DNA of 28,679 bases from a virus, in IMG/VR virus record IMGVR_UViG_3300042922_000550, positions 1-28,679 of that record. The stretch is one strand, 5' to 3'. Both the position numbers and the translations under genes were made by a program. Below the pieces are notes generated by a model. It was not told the origin of the DNA. It saw only the letters and a list, made by a program, of their open reading frames with translations, and did no database searches. Each line of letters opens with the position of its first letter. The first letter of the stretch is position 1. Of this stretch, positions 3,731 through 27,774 are shown piece by piece.

Positions 3731-4318
3731 ATGCAAATACATTATAAGTTTACAGAAACAGAAATAAATAAGCTCTTAAAAGAAAACCTATTAATTTTAT
3801 ATGACACAAGAGAGCAGCAAAACAAACATATTTTAGATTATTTTAATAAGAATAAGATTGAATATAAAAAGCAAAAAATTGACGAAGGTGATTACACTGC
3901 AATAATAACTAAATGCCCTGAAAAAGGAATATACAGAGATTTATATTTCCCAGTAGCAGTAGAAAGAAAGAATAGTATTGATGAACTTGCTGGAAACTTA
4001 GCAGAGGAAACCGACACACATGACGATATAAGGCTCATACGTGAACTTCAAAGGGCAAAGACTAAAGGTATTAAGATTTACTTAATAATTGAAGATAAGA
4101 ACGGCATGGAGCATATAAAGGAAGGCAAATACAGAAGTTTGTACAAGCCTAAAGCTTTTCTTGGGAGACTCTCAAGCATACAAGATTTATATTTATATGA
4201 CACCATATTCACAGACAGCAGCAACACTGGCTTTGAGATTTATAGAAAGTTATATTACAGTGTTAGAAATTTTTTAAAGGAATTAGATATGGATATAAGT
4301 CCAGAAATGGAAGGATAG
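3731..4318 (+). CDS. ERCC4-domain nuclease (XPF/Mus81-like)
   Basis: Encodes 195 residues. It carries the ERCC4 nuclease signature: ILYDTREQ (D25, R27, E28), DEGDYTA (D54) and VERKNSIDEL (E78, R79, K80, D84), that is GDx(n)ERKx3D. Family members cut branched or flapped DNA. In phages such stand-alone domains probably resolve recombination or replication intermediates. It follows the recombinase by 43 bases and precedes the primase-helicase, so a DNA-processing job in early replication fits. No helix-hairpin-helix domain is obvious at the C-terminus, so DNA targeting may need a partner. ATG after ggaaggtgg. Confidence 0.85.
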   Translation: MQIHYKFTETEINKLLKENLLILYDTREQQNKHILDYFNKNKIEYKKQKIDEGDYTAIITKCPEKGIYRDLYFPVAVERKNSIDELAGNLAEETDTHDDIRLIRELQRAKTKGIKIYLIIEDKNGMEHIKEGKYRSLYKPKAFLGRLSSIQDLYLYDTIFTDSSNTGFEIYRKLYYSVRNFLKELDMDISPEMEG

Positions 4319-4470: not shown

Positions 4471-7038
4471 GTGGATTTACAGGATATAGATTTAAAAGAA
4501 TTAATAGAAAAAGAAACAGGAGAAAAATTTAATAGACAAGGGTACATTAAGTGCCCTTTTCACAATGAAAAAACACCTTCACTTTCAGTTAAGTTTTTCC
4601 CTGATAAGAATAAATATAAATTCAAATGCTTTGGATGCAGTGAAGTCGGAGATGCGATTGACTTTATTATGAAACTTAAAGGATTTGATTATGTACAAGC
4701 CAGGGAATATTTAGGCCTTTCAGTTGAAAAAAGTATTCATGAAGAACAGATTGAAAAAGTAAAAGGATATATTGAATGGGAATTATCTAAATTTAGAACA
4801 GGTCAGGAGCTGCTAGGAATATTCCCATTTGTTAATGGTCAGGGAGAGACAGCATATTTTAAAGCAAAATTTATGAATCATGATAGTAAAAAGGAACTTT
4901 CATACTACCATTTAGAGGGAGATAAGGTCATTAATAAAAGGGGAACTGAAGAACTCCCTTATAATCTATATAAAACTATTAAGGGAATACAAAATAAAAG
5001 CATTGTGATTATAACTGAAGGTGAAAAAGATGCCAATACACTAAATTCTATGCTTAAAAATCATGATTATGTTGCAACCAGTATTAAAGGATGTAAGGAT
5101 TTATCATTATTAGAAGGTGCAAGAATTTATGTATGTAGCGATACTGGGGAAGCCGGAGAGCAATATAAATGGAAAATCTATAAAGCACTTTTCAGAAGCT
5201 CTGTTGAATTTAAATTTATCAATCTTCCAGGATTAAAAAATCTAGGAGATAACAAAGATGTAACAGACTGGATAGAAGCAGGGCACACAAATAAAGATTT
5301 GCTTAATGCTTTTGAAAGATCACTAGATTTAAAGTCAGAGTATGAACTACAGCAGGATCCAAAGGGAATATATAAAATATTCTATAAAACAAAAAAGGAT
5401 GAGGTAGAAAGAGTAAAAAAATACCTAACAGATTTCAGGTTAATTGAGGCTACAAGGATAAGATTCACCAATGAGGACCAGGAAGGTGTAAAGCTTATTC
5501 TAAAATCTCCTACAGGAGAAACTATTGAAAGAATAGGATATTCTACAGTATTTGATGATATTAGAACTTTTAAGAATTTTCTTGGTACATTGGACCTTGC
5601 CTTTAAAGGTAAAATTGATGATTTAACAGATTTAAAGACATGGATAAATAAATATTTTGCTCTGGAAGTTGAAGAAATATATAACGGAGTACAATTTAAA
5701 ATTAAAGATAATAAATTGTTATTTATATCTAATGATGGAGCTATTAGCAAAGACAAAATTTATGGCAATATGAAAAGTGATGGAAGAAATGAAGTCCAAA
5801 TTTCAGGTTTAGAAGACCTGACAAAAGAGGAATTGCGAGAAATTAAAAATCATATTTTCAAATTTGCTACACCAGATAAAACCATTAGCATTGTAGGAAC
5901 TGTCATTAATAATATGGCAGTTGCGCAATGCAAAGAGTCTAAAAATAAGTTACATCACTTAATGATAGTTGGCGAGGCTGGCAGTGGTAAAAGTACAATA
6001 CTAGAAAATGTAATAGCTCCAATACTTAATTATCCAGCGAAGGAAATTAAATCACTTGGATTGGCCACAAACTTTAGTTTAATTAAGGATCTTTCTGATG
6101 GAAATTACTCAATGATTTATGAGGAACATAAACCTTCAAGGTGGGATCGGTATAAAATATCAAAAATAAGTGAAATTTTAAGAAATTTATATGATGATTC
6201 TACTGTATCAAGGGGTGATAAATCATTTAAATCAAAGAATTTCTATTTAAGCAGACCAATAATAATTGCTGGAGAAGAAAGTTATTACAATAATGAAAAA
6301 CCTTTGATAGAAAGAAGCTGCATTATTTATACATCTAAGAACGAAAGAACAAAAGAAAGCAGCATTGAAATGAATTGGATAATTGAAAATGAAAAGTTAT
6401 TAAATAAACTAGGAAGGGATTTAATTTATGTAATATTAAATTTATCAGTTGATAAGTATGTTCAAATGAGAAACAAAATAAAGGAGAGTATAAATGAATT
6501 AAAGGATAGACCTTTAAATACAGCTATTAATATAGCCATGGGAATGGAAATCCTAAACATTTTATTGAGAAAACATAATATTAAACCTATTACAGGTTAC
6601 ATGGAACACATAGTAAAAAATATAAAAAGTGAAGTACTTGAGGGCGGTCACGAAGCTCACTCAGTAGTTGAACAAATGCTAGTTTTATACAATGAAATGA
6701 TAGAAGATGGGAGAGCTTACAATCCAGAAGATGTAGTTAGGTACAGAGGTGATGGAATATTTATTAAAACATCTGAAATGGTTAATCAAATTCATGAGCA
6801 TGTAAATAAAGTTGGAGCTGATATTACTCCCCTGGGTTTAAGAGATTTTAAAAAGCAGGCAATGAAGTCAGGATATTTATTGGGTACATCAAATAAAGTT
6901 ATAAAAATTGGGAATAAGACTGTAAGATTTGATACTTATAATAAGGAGAAGCTAAGAAAACTAAATGTAAGTTCAATAGTTCCGCAGGAATTAGAGGATG
7001 TTACGGAGCTTGATAATAATGTAATTCCATTCAATTAA
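4471..7038 (+). CDS. primase-helicase (CHC2 zinc finger, Toprim, P-loop ATPase)
   Basis: Encodes 855 residues; GTG start behind agaggtg. The N-terminal DnaG-type zinc ribbon is C28-x2-H31 (CPFHNEKTPSLSV) with C53-x2-C56 (FKCFGCSEVGDAIDF). A Toprim-like domain follows, with EGEKD at 183-187 and CSDTGEAGE at 222-230. The usual second metal-binding aspartate of the DxD motif is glycine (G226). The C-terminal half has a Walker A, GEAGSGKST (501-509), and a Walker-B-like SMIYEE (547-552), in the manner of phage D5/SF3-like helicases, then a winged-helix-like tail. It would make primers and unwind DNA at the phage origin. The repeat cluster just downstream is the candidate origin. Probably co-expressed with the nuclease and recombinase. 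Confidence 0.9.
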   Translation: MDLQDIDLKELIEKETGEKFNRQGYIKCPFHNEKTPSLSVKFFPDKNKYKFKCFGCSEVGDAIDFIMKLKGFDYVQAREYLGLSVEKSIHEEQIEKVKGYIEWELSKFRTGQELLGIFPFVNGQGETAYFKAKFMNHDSKKELSYYHLEGDKVINKRGTEELPYNLYKTIKGIQNKSIVIITEGEKDANTLNSMLKNHDYVATSIKGCKDLSLLEGARIYVCSDTGEAGEQYKWKIYKALFRSSVEFKFINLPGLKNLGDNKDVTDWIEAGHTNKDLLNAFERSLDLKSEYELQQDPKGIYKIFYKTKKDEVERVKKYLTDFRLIEATRIRFTNEDQEGVKLILKSPTGETIERIGYSTVFDDIRTFKNFLGTLDLAFKGKIDDLTDLKTWINKYFALEVEEIYNGVQFKIKDNKLLFISNDGAISKDKIYGNMKSDGRNEVQISGLEDLTKEELREIKNHIFKFATPDKTISIVGTVINNMAVAQCKESKNKLHHLMIVGEAGSGKSTILENVIAPILNYPAKEIKSLGLATNFSLIKDLSDGNYSMIYEEHKPSRWDRYKISKISEILRNLYDDSTVSRGDKSFKSKNFYLSRPIIIAGEESYYNNEKPLIERSCIIYTSKNERTKESSIEMNWIIENEKLLNKLGRDLIYVILNLSVDKYVQMRNKIKESINELKDRPLNTAINIAMGMEILNILLRKHNIKPITGYMEHIVKNIKSEVLEGGHEAHSVVEQMLVLYNEMIEDGRAYNPEDVVRYRGDGIFIKTSEMVNQIHEHVNKVGADITPLGLRDFKKQAMKSGYLLGTSNKVIKIGNKTVRFDTYNKEKLRKLNVSSIVPQELEDVTELDNNVIPFN

Positions 7039-7041
7039 AAG

Positions 7042-7357
7042 ATGTAACTGTTTATGTAACCATGCTAAGGATAGACATACCAAGGCTTTAAGGGCAATTT
7101 ATTAAAAGTGCAAAAATAAAAATGTAACCAAAATGTAACCGGGTTAACCCTAGTGTTTTCAAGGCTTTTTATATATATAGTTACAAAGTTACATAAAAAT
7201 AAATATATATATTATACATGAGAGATATATTATTAAAACTAATAATATATACATAAGCATTATGTATTTTCAAAAATGTAACCTTGCAAAAAAGTATTGT
7301 AAGCATTGAAATACCAAGGGTTAAGAGATTACATTTATATGTAACTTAAATGTAACC
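7042..7357 (+). repeat. iteron-like ATGTAAC repeats, candidate replication origin
   Basis: ATGTAAC occurs seven times on the plus strand in 316 bases (7042, 7054, 7122, 7133, 7276, 7339, 7350) and once inverted (GTTACAT 7188-7194). Near-matches lie at 7180-7186 and 7328-7334. Three pairs are spaced 11-12 bases, about one helical turn. The set surrounds an A+T-rich core with a perfect hairpin (7225-7250). It also contains GGGTTAACCC (7141-7150) and two copies of AAGGCTTT (7082, 7161), with a third at 7395. The position right after the primase-helicase fits an origin bound by a phage initiator. Origin function is inference. Confidence 0.6.
7225..7250. repeat. perfect A+T-only inverted repeat in the origin-like region
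   Basis: ATATATTATTA (7225-7235) and TAATAATATAT (7240-7250) are exact inverted copies around the four bases AAAC. It lies inside the most A+T-rich part of the non-coding gap (about 7169-7262), between ATGTAAC repeat groups, as expected of a DNA-unwinding element. With no T run it does not look like a terminator. Confidence 0.6.
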
Positions 7358-7377: not shown

Positions 7378-7542
7378 ATGAGCATAGGTTCCACAAGGCT
7401 TTACAAGCAATATATCATAGGCATTGAAAGAGAAGAAAAGCAGGCTATTTTAGATAAAAATTACACTAAATTAGCAAAATTAAGTGTAAAAAAGAGTGAT
7501 TTTAAAAGGAAAATTGATGAAATAGAAAATAGAAATAAGTAA
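7378..7542 (+). CDS. small phage protein of unknown function
   Basis: A 54-residue, strongly basic and helical protein (starts MSIGSTRLYKQYIIGIEREE, ends KIDEIENRNK). AGGAGGG at 7360-7366 is eleven bases from this ATG. A closer ATG at 7373 opens only the two-codon frame ATG CTA TGA, whose stop overlaps this start as ATGA, so coupled translation is possible. It lies between the origin-like region and the late regulator. No family recognised. Confidence 0.6.
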   Translation: MSIGSTRLYKQYIIGIEREEKQAILDKNYTKLAKLSVKKSDFKRKIDEIENRNK

Positions 7543-7683: not shown

Positions 7684-8118
7684 GTGATTATTATAAATTA
7701 CTATAAAGCTGTTGAAGCAATGCTATATAATTACAAAGCAATGCATGCAGAAATTAAAAATATAGATTTAGAAATATTAGAGCTAGAAAATGAATACAAT
7801 GGCTGCAGTTCAATTTCATATGAAGAGAAAGCAGCACCAACAAATAAATTTAATAGCACTGTAGAAAATGAAATAGTTAATAGAACATATAAGCCAGGAG
7901 AACTTGAAAAGAAAAAACATAAATTACAAGTTCAAATAAAGAAAATAGATAATGCACTAGAAATACTTACTGAAGATGAAATGAATATAATTAAGCTTAG
8001 ATATTTTGATAAGCTTCAGTTTAAAGTAATATGTCAAAGAGTATGTATGAATGAAGTTTATTGTATTCAGTATAAAAGTAAAATTATTAATAAACTCATA
8101 AATCTAATATTTGTCTAA
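7684..8118 (+). CDS. sigma-region-4-like phage regulator (ArpU/RinA-type)
   Basis: Encodes about 144 residues. Two helical, charged regions (about 4-40 and 70-95) precede a C-terminal helix-turn-helix resembling sigma-70 region 4 (EILTEDEMNIIKLRYFDKL, then a recognition helix and KIINKLINL). Proteins of this size and layout just upstream of the terminase genes usually activate late transcription, so that is the inferred role. The start is odd: the GTG at 7684 sits inside AGGTGAT (7682-7688), a near-ideal Shine-Dalgarno match. Translation may really begin at an ATT/ATA a few codons later, or the start codon may have been lost. Confidence 0.75.
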   Translation: MIIINYYKAVEAMLYNYKAMHAEIKNIDLEILELENEYNGCSSISYEEKAAPTNKFNSTVENEIVNRTYKPGELEKKKHKLQVQIKKIDNALEILTEDEMNIIKLRYFDKLQFKVICQRVCMNEVYCIQYKSKIINKLINLIFV

Positions 8119-8913: not shown

Positions 8914-10662
8914 ATGTATGATGAAGAAAAGCAAAATAGGCAATTATTATATAAATATCTAAAAAAAGAATATGGTCAGGATAAAGCAAAAGAATTTATG
9001 CACAAATATAAGTTTCACCTGTTTGATTATCATGGTTTAGCCTGGTCATTAGGTAAAAGATCATTAGAGTTTTTCTGTATGTATTTTCTTCAGAATACAT
9101 TTTTACCTAAGGAAACAAATGCTGCCGCTCCTATTGCTGATGTTCATAGAAGACTCTGGAAAGATATACAAGAATCAATATCAGGGGATGGAGCTAATCA
9201 AATTGGTAGAATTGAACCAAGAGGAACTGGTAAAAGTGCATTTGGTAATTTTGGGCCTACATGTTGGGCTCATGCATATGAATTAAAAAAATATTCTTTG
9301 ATATGCTCTGATATTGGTAAAACAGCTGAGAAATTTATTAAAGATATTAAAAATGCTTTTTTAGATAACCAATATATTGAAAAAGCATTTGGAAAACTTT
9401 TAGATGATAGTGATAAAAGATATATTTGCAATAGTACACAACTTGAATTTACTAATAAAACCTTTGTAGAAGCAATTGCAAGTTCAAGTCCAATGCGTGG
9501 CCGTAAGTATGATAACTGTAGACCGGATTTAATTATTCTGGATGATTATCAAAGTGAGGATGATGTAAGAACTGAAGAGGCTAGGGAGAAAAAGTGGAAG
9601 AGATTTAGTGATGATGTTAAGTTTGCAGTTCAAAAGCCGGTTATTAGAAATGGTAAAACCATAAAAAAAGGCACTACATTAATTGCCCTTGGTACTTTAC
9701 AACATAAAGAATGTTTCTATTCAAGGCTTTTAAAGCAACCTACATGGAAGTTTAAAAAAGATAAGGGTGTTCTTATAGATGATTTTATAGATTCTGAAGG
9801 TAAAAAAGTTAATGGACTTGATCATTACTTTAACTCAGGTTTATGGAAACAGTTTAAAGATATTCTCTTTAACTTTAAAAATGAAAATCATTTGGATGAT
9901 GCCAAAGAATTTTACTGGGAACATGAGAAGGGAATGCAATATTCATTATTATGGGCCGAATTTTGGGATTGTCTTGACATGGCCCTGCAGTACTATGAAA
10001 ATCCGGCTAGTTTTAAGCAGGAAGTTCAGGGTGATGTTGATAGTATTGGGGAAAAGTGGTTTAAAGTTGTCAATACTCGTCCAAGGAAAGAAATTGAAAC
10101 GCATAATTTTACAAAAACAATGCTTTTAATGGATCCGGCCAGTACTGATAATGGAAAATCAGATTTTTGTGCATTTTTAGTTGGCTCTGAAGCTGATACT
10201 AATTTGAAATATGGGCGTAAAGCAGAATTAGCAAAAATTAATGCCAGAACCAATTTTGACGATTATATCGATCATGGAATAAAGCTTTTAAAAGCTTTTA
10301 CAGATATTACTCATGTGTATATTGAAAAAAATACATTTAATGGTGCTGATGCAAACCAACTGGAGCTTAAAATTAATAAGGATCCTGTTCTAAGATATAG
10401 AAATATTGAGATTATTAATGAGATGCAGCGTAAGAATAAGGATGATAAAATCAGTACAATTATTCCAGCAATGAATAAAGGTCAGATTATTTTTGCTGAA
10501 GAAGACACTGAATTTACAAATCAGATTAAAGAATTTGCAGGACAAAAGTTCTCAATACATGATGATGCTCCGGATATTACTGCTGAGTTTGTAAATAGAA
10601 TAGAAAATATAGAGGTTATACAAACAGTTCAACTCTATGATCGTAGAAAATTAGGTATATAA
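8914..10662 (+). CDS. terL: terminase large subunit (packaging ATPase-nuclease)
   Basis: Encodes 582 residues. Walker A is EPRGTGKSAF (101-110), Walker B DLIILDD (205-211), and SSSPMRGRKYDNCRPD precedes it as in other TerL proteins. The C-terminal RNase-H-like nuclease begins at LLMDPAST (D407). A downstream DDAP (about 550) may be its last acidic position. It powers DNA translocation into the prohead through the portal encoded next and cuts the concatemer. The ATG follows gaaggtgac. Somewhat longer than SPP1-type TerL but otherwise ordinary. Confidence 0.93.
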   Translation: MYDEEKQNRQLLYKYLKKEYGQDKAKEFMHKYKFHLFDYHGLAWSLGKRSLEFFCMYFLQNTFLPKETNAAAPIADVHRRLWKDIQESISGDGANQIGRIEPRGTGKSAFGNFGPTCWAHAYELKKYSLICSDIGKTAEKFIKDIKNAFLDNQYIEKAFGKLLDDSDKRYICNSTQLEFTNKTFVEAIASSSPMRGRKYDNCRPDLIILDDYQSEDDVRTEEAREKKWKRFSDDVKFAVQKPVIRNGKTIKKGTTLIALGTLQHKECFYSRLLKQPTWKFKKDKGVLIDDFIDSEGKKVNGLDHYFNSGLWKQFKDILFNFKNENHLDDAKEFYWEHEKGMQYSLLWAEFWDCLDMALQYYENPASFKQEVQGDVDSIGEKWFKVVNTRPRKEIETHNFTKTMLLMDPASTDNGKSDFCAFLVGSEADTNLKYGRKAELAKINARTNFDDYIDHGIKLLKAFTDITHVYIEKNTFNGADANQLELKINKDPVLRYRNIEIINEMQRKNKDDKISTIIPAMNKGQIIFAEEDTEFTNQIKEFAGQKFSIHDDAPDITAEFVNRIENIEVIQTVQLYDRRKLGI

Positions 10663-27558: not shown

Positions 27559-27774
27559 ATGTTAACTACTAAGCAGAAAAGAATTTTAGAAATTATAGAA
27601 AAATATATAAATAAAAATAAAATTTCACCTACTACAAGAGAACTGGCAAATCTATCTGGAATAAAATCAACATCAACAATCCATGACTATTTGGAGCAAT
27701 TGAAAAAGAAAGGTTTTATTACCTGGCATGATAAAATGCCAAGAACAATACAGGTGCTAAAAATTAATGTATAA
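27559..27774 (+). CDS. LexA DNA-binding domain only (no self-cleavage domain)
   Basis: Encodes 71 residues; ATG after aaagggggata. The whole protein matches the winged-helix N-terminal domain of LexA: LTTKQKRILEIIEKYI, ISPTTRELANLSGIKSTSTI (recognition-helix region), HDYLEQLKKKGFI and a closing RTIQVL. Full LexA is about 200 residues and carries a Ser-Lys self-cleaving, dimerising domain, entirely absent here. The gene ends cleanly before a terminator and has its own ribosome binding site, so it is not simply cut off. It may compete for SOS boxes, autoregulate its promoter or modify host LexA control. Confidence 0.88.
   Translation: MLTTKQKRILEIIEKYINKNKISPTTRELANLSGIKSTSTIHDYLEQLKKKGFITWHDKMPRTIQVLKINV

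Follow-up and report, generated by a model that had tools for sequence, protein, structure and literature searches.

Organisation of the locus

The window, by which is meant the entire stretch of DNA analysed, is a complete IMG/VR virus record of 28,679 bp. It encodes an 855-residue primase-helicase, and an array of short repeats begins 4 bp beyond the stop codon of this gene (Table 1). Downstream of the array are, in order, an ORF with a 54-residue product (7378–7542), a gene for an ArpU-type regulator (7684–8118) and the genes for the small and large terminase subunits, TerS and TerL, with terS about 1 kb 3' of the array. TerS and TerL were identified by profile match, and the long ORFs beyond them are ordered like a phage structural module. 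The element is a full-size phage, with virion genes of its own that a satellite would lack. RepA_N, Rep_3 and pi initiators were found in none of the ten window proteins scanned. GC skew is positive on both sides of the array and is uninformative.

A gene for an ERCC4-type nuclease is located upstream of the helicase gene (3731–4318). Most relatives have a homologue immediately before the helicase gene, and this proximity suggests that the two proteins are a functional pair. Elsewhere in the window (27559–27774) a 71-residue protein is encoded which consists of a LexA DNA-binding domain alone, without the protease part.

Table 1. Coordinates of the primase-helicase gene and of the elements of the downstream array.
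Feature	Position	Strand	Basis or remark
Primase-helicase, 855 aa	4471–7038	+	PHROG_26824 over full length; CHC2 zinc finger; AlphaFold model; structure matches
Winged-helix codons, residues 732–830, proposed iteron-binding domain	6664–6960	+	Model secondary structure; co-variation with repeat position 5
Wing-hairpin codons, residues 803–823, proposed specificity determinant	6877–6939	+	Co-varying residues; L083/L085 natural swap
Iteron 1, ATGTAAC	7042–7048	+	
Iteron 2, ATGTAAC(C)	7054–7060	+	12 bp from iteron 1
Box B copy 1	7067–7093	+	Second conserved element
Iteron 3, ATGTAAC(C)	7122–7128	+	
Iteron 4, ATGTAAC(C)	7133–7139	+	11 bp from iteron 3
Box B copy 2	7146–7172	+	
Central inverted iteron dimer, GTTACAaaGTTACAT	7180–7194	-	Imperfect copy on the left; step of 8 bp; dimer also present in many relatives
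A+T-rich spacer, 81 bp, 88% A+T	7195–7275	.	Proposed melting zone; holds non-conserved hairpin
Iteron 5, ATGTAAC(C)	7276–7282	+	
Box B copy 3	7301–7327	+	
Degenerate inverted iteron, ATTACAT	7328–7334	-	Full inverted copy here in many relatives
Iteron 6, ATGTAAC	7339–7345	+	
Iteron 7, ATGTAAC(C)	7350–7356	+	11 bp from iteron 6

The repeat array

A sequence-only reading of this region had described seven direct copies and one inverted copy of ATGTAAC, with three closely spaced pairs. All eight copies were confirmed, the inverted one at 7188–7194, as were the pair spacings of 12, 11 and 11 bp. The eight copies fall within 315 bp; in shuffles preserving dinucleotides (100 of the whole window and 1000 local) no 7-mer ever exceeded four copies per 320 bp. 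Both strands of the whole window together hold 17 copies against 4.8 expected, nine of them scattered outside the array. Two inverted elements can be added to that earlier list: an imperfect GTTACA at 7180–7185, which forms an inverted dimer with the copy at 7188–7194, and the degenerate ATTACAT to the right of the spacer. The iterons thus form two sets, 7042–7194 and 7276–7356, which flank an A+T-rich spacer as they do in SaPI/PICI origins. A host-wide repeat was ruled out, since paired TGTWAC sites occur elsewhere in three host genomes at close to control counts.

The same reading had placed a perfect, purely A+T hairpin within the array. The hairpin (7225–7250) is real, with 11-bp arms composed of A and T only, and is rare by shuffling (2 of 200), but its four-base loop contains a C. 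As a conserved element it was rejected: most relatives lack the perfect stem, among them L013, whose helicase is 88% identical, and the hairpin is therefore not the functional core. Conservation was found in the spacer between the oppositely oriented repeats, which measures 70–87 bp in 16 arrays, the window included, with an A+T fraction of 0.83–0.95 in 15 of these and of 0.71 in L089. As to the additional symmetry elements that had been noticed, GGGTTAACCC (7141–7150) is not conserved, whilst the AAGGCTTT repeats proved to be part of a conserved element, box B.

Box B is a dyad element of about 27 bp, AAAGCTAGTnATATCAAnGCTTTaaG, present in up to three copies in most clostridial arrays. Scanning 25 arrays gave 42 sites, where the parts of these loci lying beyond the arrays would predict 1.6; the excess is somewhat inflated, since the arrays themselves served to train the motif. 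Box B was also found in arrays next to helicases of two other types (L126, 11241; L130, 3118) and is common to candidate origins with three different helicase families; most of the arrays that belong to other families lack it.

Conservation of layout and concerted change of the repeat word

Relatives were sought in viral contigs and in 207 genomes from the family of Clostridium guangxiense, giving some 40 helicase relatives with usable flanks; a search of phage records with the helicase returned weak primase matches only. An array of the same layout was found in nearly all helicase relatives with enough 3' sequence, 0–5.8 kb downstream of the gene. On the left, direct copies 11–12 bp apart are followed by an inverted copy or dimer; on the right, beyond an A+T-rich spacer of 70–87 bp, come a direct copy, an inverted copy and further direct copies. 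The spacing of the repeats is kept among relatives. Insertions have moved the array 0.7–5.8 kb further down at seven loci (L004, L010, L090, L092, L095, L096 and L098) with the layout preserved, and at L094 and L097 no array was found within the downstream sequence examined. In L004, a prophage of Clostridium guangxiense, the array occupies 9297–9661.

Some more divergent arrangements were also observed. At L083 the array seems to be truncated beyond the inverted copy, lacking the usual right half and its iterons, so that the origin of this prophage may be damaged. L103 and L104 encode helicase relatives without the N-terminal primase part, and TGTGCC repeats flank an A+T-rich spacer 3' of them. 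Terrisporobacter plasmids of 21 kb (L014–L017), which carry proline reductase and selenocysteine genes, have as their sole annotated replication gene a distant helicase relative (26.7–28% identity), and contain ACAATTGGT repeats near parA. These plasmids neither support nor refute the proposed relationship between helicase and array, because no TGTNAC array was found on them and the C-terminal 100 or so residues of their helicases do not align.

While the layout is constant, the repeat word differs between phages and is common to the copies within one array. The words were picked out manually from tables of k-mers and oriented by the array layout. The window shares ATGTAACC with L012, L013 and L087; ATGTTACC is found at L006, L083 and L084, TTGTTACA at L093, L096 and L098, GTGTAAC at L090 and L101, and TGTGCC at L103 and L104. 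Single loci carry ATGTTACA (L004), AGGTAACC (L056), GGGTAACC (L086), ATGTAAGG (L085), ATGTAATT (L082) and ACGTAACC (L061). One genome, G157, holds three prophages (L083, L085 and L086) with three different words. Such concerted change is expected only if the reader of the word is encoded by the phage, and it therefore points to a phage-encoded protein.

The primase-helicase and its winged helix

The primase-helicase consists of a DnaG-type primase (residues ~1–290) fused to an MCM-type helicase resembling SaPIbov1 Rep and Cch. An AlphaFold2 model built on a 21-row alignment (mean pLDDT 80.8) contains a canonical winged helix at residues 732–830. In structure comparisons the best match was SaPIbov1 Rep (8tch; Z 21.0 over 453 residues, model residues 289–840), followed by SCCmec Cch (5dgk; Z 20.1 over 456 residues), with the next row at 14.4. 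Both matches span the helicase and the C-terminal winged helix, indicating a shared fold; T7 gp4 and DnaG primases match model residues ~85–300. The helicase core is merely 12–13% identical to SaPI Rep and Cch, and a search for Pfam signatures gave the CHC2 zinc finger as the only match above cut-off, with neither DUF927 nor the Cch HTH found. The protein is accordingly a fold relative of SaPIbov1 Rep and Cch and not a member of their sequence family.

SaPI Rep proteins have been reported to bind iterons directly 3' of their own gene via the C-terminal domain (PMC7581432). About 34 relatives were compared, and the outcome indicates that the helicase of the window may likewise recognise its repeats itself, through the small C-terminal wing. 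On a tree built from helicase residues 1–720, position 5 of the repeat changes between A and T eight times. The winged helix provides 12 of the 20 columns co-varying best with this position, a result obtained in 0 of 1000 simulations under a phylogeny-aware null in which the label evolved on the same tree, and the wing provides three of the top five (1 of 1000). An earlier run with 28 sequences gave four of the top five (0 of 1000). The best single column is not unusual alone (316 of 1000 under the null); only the clustering in the winged helix is. Position 5 co-varies with wing residues 810, 816, 817 and 819, and position 8 with residue 812, which is Lys in 17 of 18 C-words and Arg in eight of nine A-words. 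A strict one-residue code at 810 or 817 was weakened by loci added later, namely L158, a T-word with Val810, and L124, L129 and L133, A-words with Pro817. The residue rules are tendencies and do not amount to a strict code.

The cleanest natural experiment on wing and word is provided by L083 and L085, prophages of the same genome. Their helicases are 95% identical over residues 300–720, whereas the wings are 48% identical and the words are ATGTTACC and ATGTAAGG, respectively. The pair looks as if wing and origin had been exchanged, or had diversified against cross-replication.

Other possible readers of the array

Other proteins encoded near the array were considered as readers of its repeats. 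The small ORF and, in most cases, an ArpU-type gene are found downstream of the array, which ends at a ribosome-binding site, as might a late-gene operator through which the ArpU/RinA-type regulator controls the small ORF, arpU and the terminase genes. That the array has this role is very unlikely. Arrays are present at L012, L083, L101, L103 and L104 where no ArpU match was found, the ArpU proteins of L099 and L100 are 95% identical yet the words differ, and L084 and L089 have a common word core with ArpU proteins only 28% identical. The word moreover co-varies with the helicase wing, and the length and A+T-rich centre of the array are atypical of operators. Since cos regions can contain repeated terminase sites, and TerS is encoded close downstream, the array could instead be a packaging (cos/pac) site read by the small terminase subunit. 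This we consider scarcely credible: many arrays are found in loci without this TerS family, L084 and L087 combine 82% identical TerS proteins with different words, L006 and L084 have the same word and TerS proteins 22% identical, and the co-variation with the helicase wing would be left unexplained.

A slim chance is given to a different protein, either the 54-residue product or a host factor, binding ATGTAAC and recruiting the helicase. In several relatives the small ORF comes immediately after the array, and the conserved box B suggests an additional binder, but the ORF was not detected beside most arrays, and L085 and L086 have small ORFs 94% identical with different words. A host factor, for its part, cannot explain three words in the single genome G157. 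Recruitment by another protein fits box B better than it fits the iterons. ArpU, the small ORF and TerS were thus rejected as iteron binders, the similarity of each protein being decoupled from the repeat word.

A proposed model for initiation

The array 3' of the primase-helicase is very probably the place where copying of the phage DNA starts. An iteron-type origin, as the sequence-only reading had suggested, is strongly supported by the conservation of the array, the concerted change of its repeats and the co-variation. That reading had also supposed that the binding protein might be a new initiator, and this part is not upheld: on the evidence of the predicted fold and of the co-varying C-terminal winged helix, the binder is most likely the adjacent, SaPI-Rep/Cch-like primase-helicase. 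We are largely confident that 7042–7356 is a replication origin of the SaPI/PICI type, at which the upstream primase-helicase would bind, melt, load and prime. According to this model, the C-terminal winged helix would bind the ATGTAACC iterons, with sequence specificity set by the wing. The protein would assemble on the iteron sets flanking the spacer of some 80 bp, melt this A+T-rich DNA and then load as a helicase ring, and the first primers would be laid by the fused DnaG-type primase.

Comparison with known systems

In phage P4, the alpha protein (ori/crr) combines primase, helicase and C-terminal winged-helix origin binding in one polypeptide, as is proposed here; its repeats, however, are of other sequence and lie in two separated regions. 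SaPI/PICI elements, exemplified by SaPIbov1 Rep, resemble the present locus in having the origin directly 3' of rep, with two iteron sets flanking an A+T-rich zone, and a self-loading helicase with a C-terminal DNA-binding domain, a property which is predicted here from the best structural match (PMC6092414, PMC7581432). What differs is that the candidate origin described here belongs to full-size phages, with terminase and structural genes, and that the helicase carries a fused DnaG-type primase; in addition, the iterons have words of the form TGTNAC, the proteins are about 12% identical in sequence and Pfam DUF927 is not matched. SCCmec Cch ranks second among the structural matches over helicase and winged helix, and Cch2 binds direct repeats downstream of its own gene by its C-terminal domain (PMC7581432). 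In that system, by contrast, only three 5-nt iterons have been reported, the mobile element is different and the primase is a separate protein. The pRN1/BIP-1 replicons also have an origin immediately 3' of a gene for a primase-helicase, there a prim-pol helicase, with a winged helix (PMC4234260), but theirs is a conserved stem-loop served by an archaeal-type primase, whereas here the iterons are conserved and the hairpin is not. No report of iteron origins in clostridial phages was found in the literature searched.

Occurrence beyond this helicase family

Viral contigs were also searched with a pattern containing no protein information (GTTACAAAGTTACAT, 70–100 bases, TGTAAC). It matched at 37 places, nearly all of them dense TGTAAC arrays, and the same pattern reversed gave no matches. 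About a third of the 37 places carry a PHROG_26824-type helicase like that of the window. In about half of the remainder, another long gene ends inside the array or within some 150 bp of its start. Ten of the neighbouring proteins were scanned, and nine of them contain primase-helicase domains (VapE, DUF3987, D5/DUF5906, DUF927 with Cch HTH, Prim-Pol, PriCT); one of the nine, at L151, is separated from its array by 520 bp. Phages differing widely in G+C content among L112–L158 (for example L138, L151 and L140, a contig of 61% GC) have TGTAAC/TGTTAC arrays with paired inverted dimers, many of them directly 3' of other primase-helicases.

It is tentatively proposed that these arrays belong to a very widespread class of phage origin, in which the gene for a primase-helicase of one of several families (PHROG_26824, VapE, DUF3987, D5/DUF5906, DUF927/Cch and Prim-Pol) precedes an A+T-rich zone with TGTNAC-type iterons on either side. 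By changing residues of the wing, phages, and among them prophages resident in the same cell, may diversify the word, which would constitute a natural DNA-recognition code and a means of avoiding replicon incompatibility.

Many temperate phages carry a primase-helicase whose mechanism of initiation is obscure. The natural variants of word and wing, above all the two prophages of a single genome whose helicase cores are nearly identical, open origin specificity to direct testing. Such variants could account for the way in which prophages sharing a host keep from replicating each other, and for the exchange of replication modules between satellites and phages.
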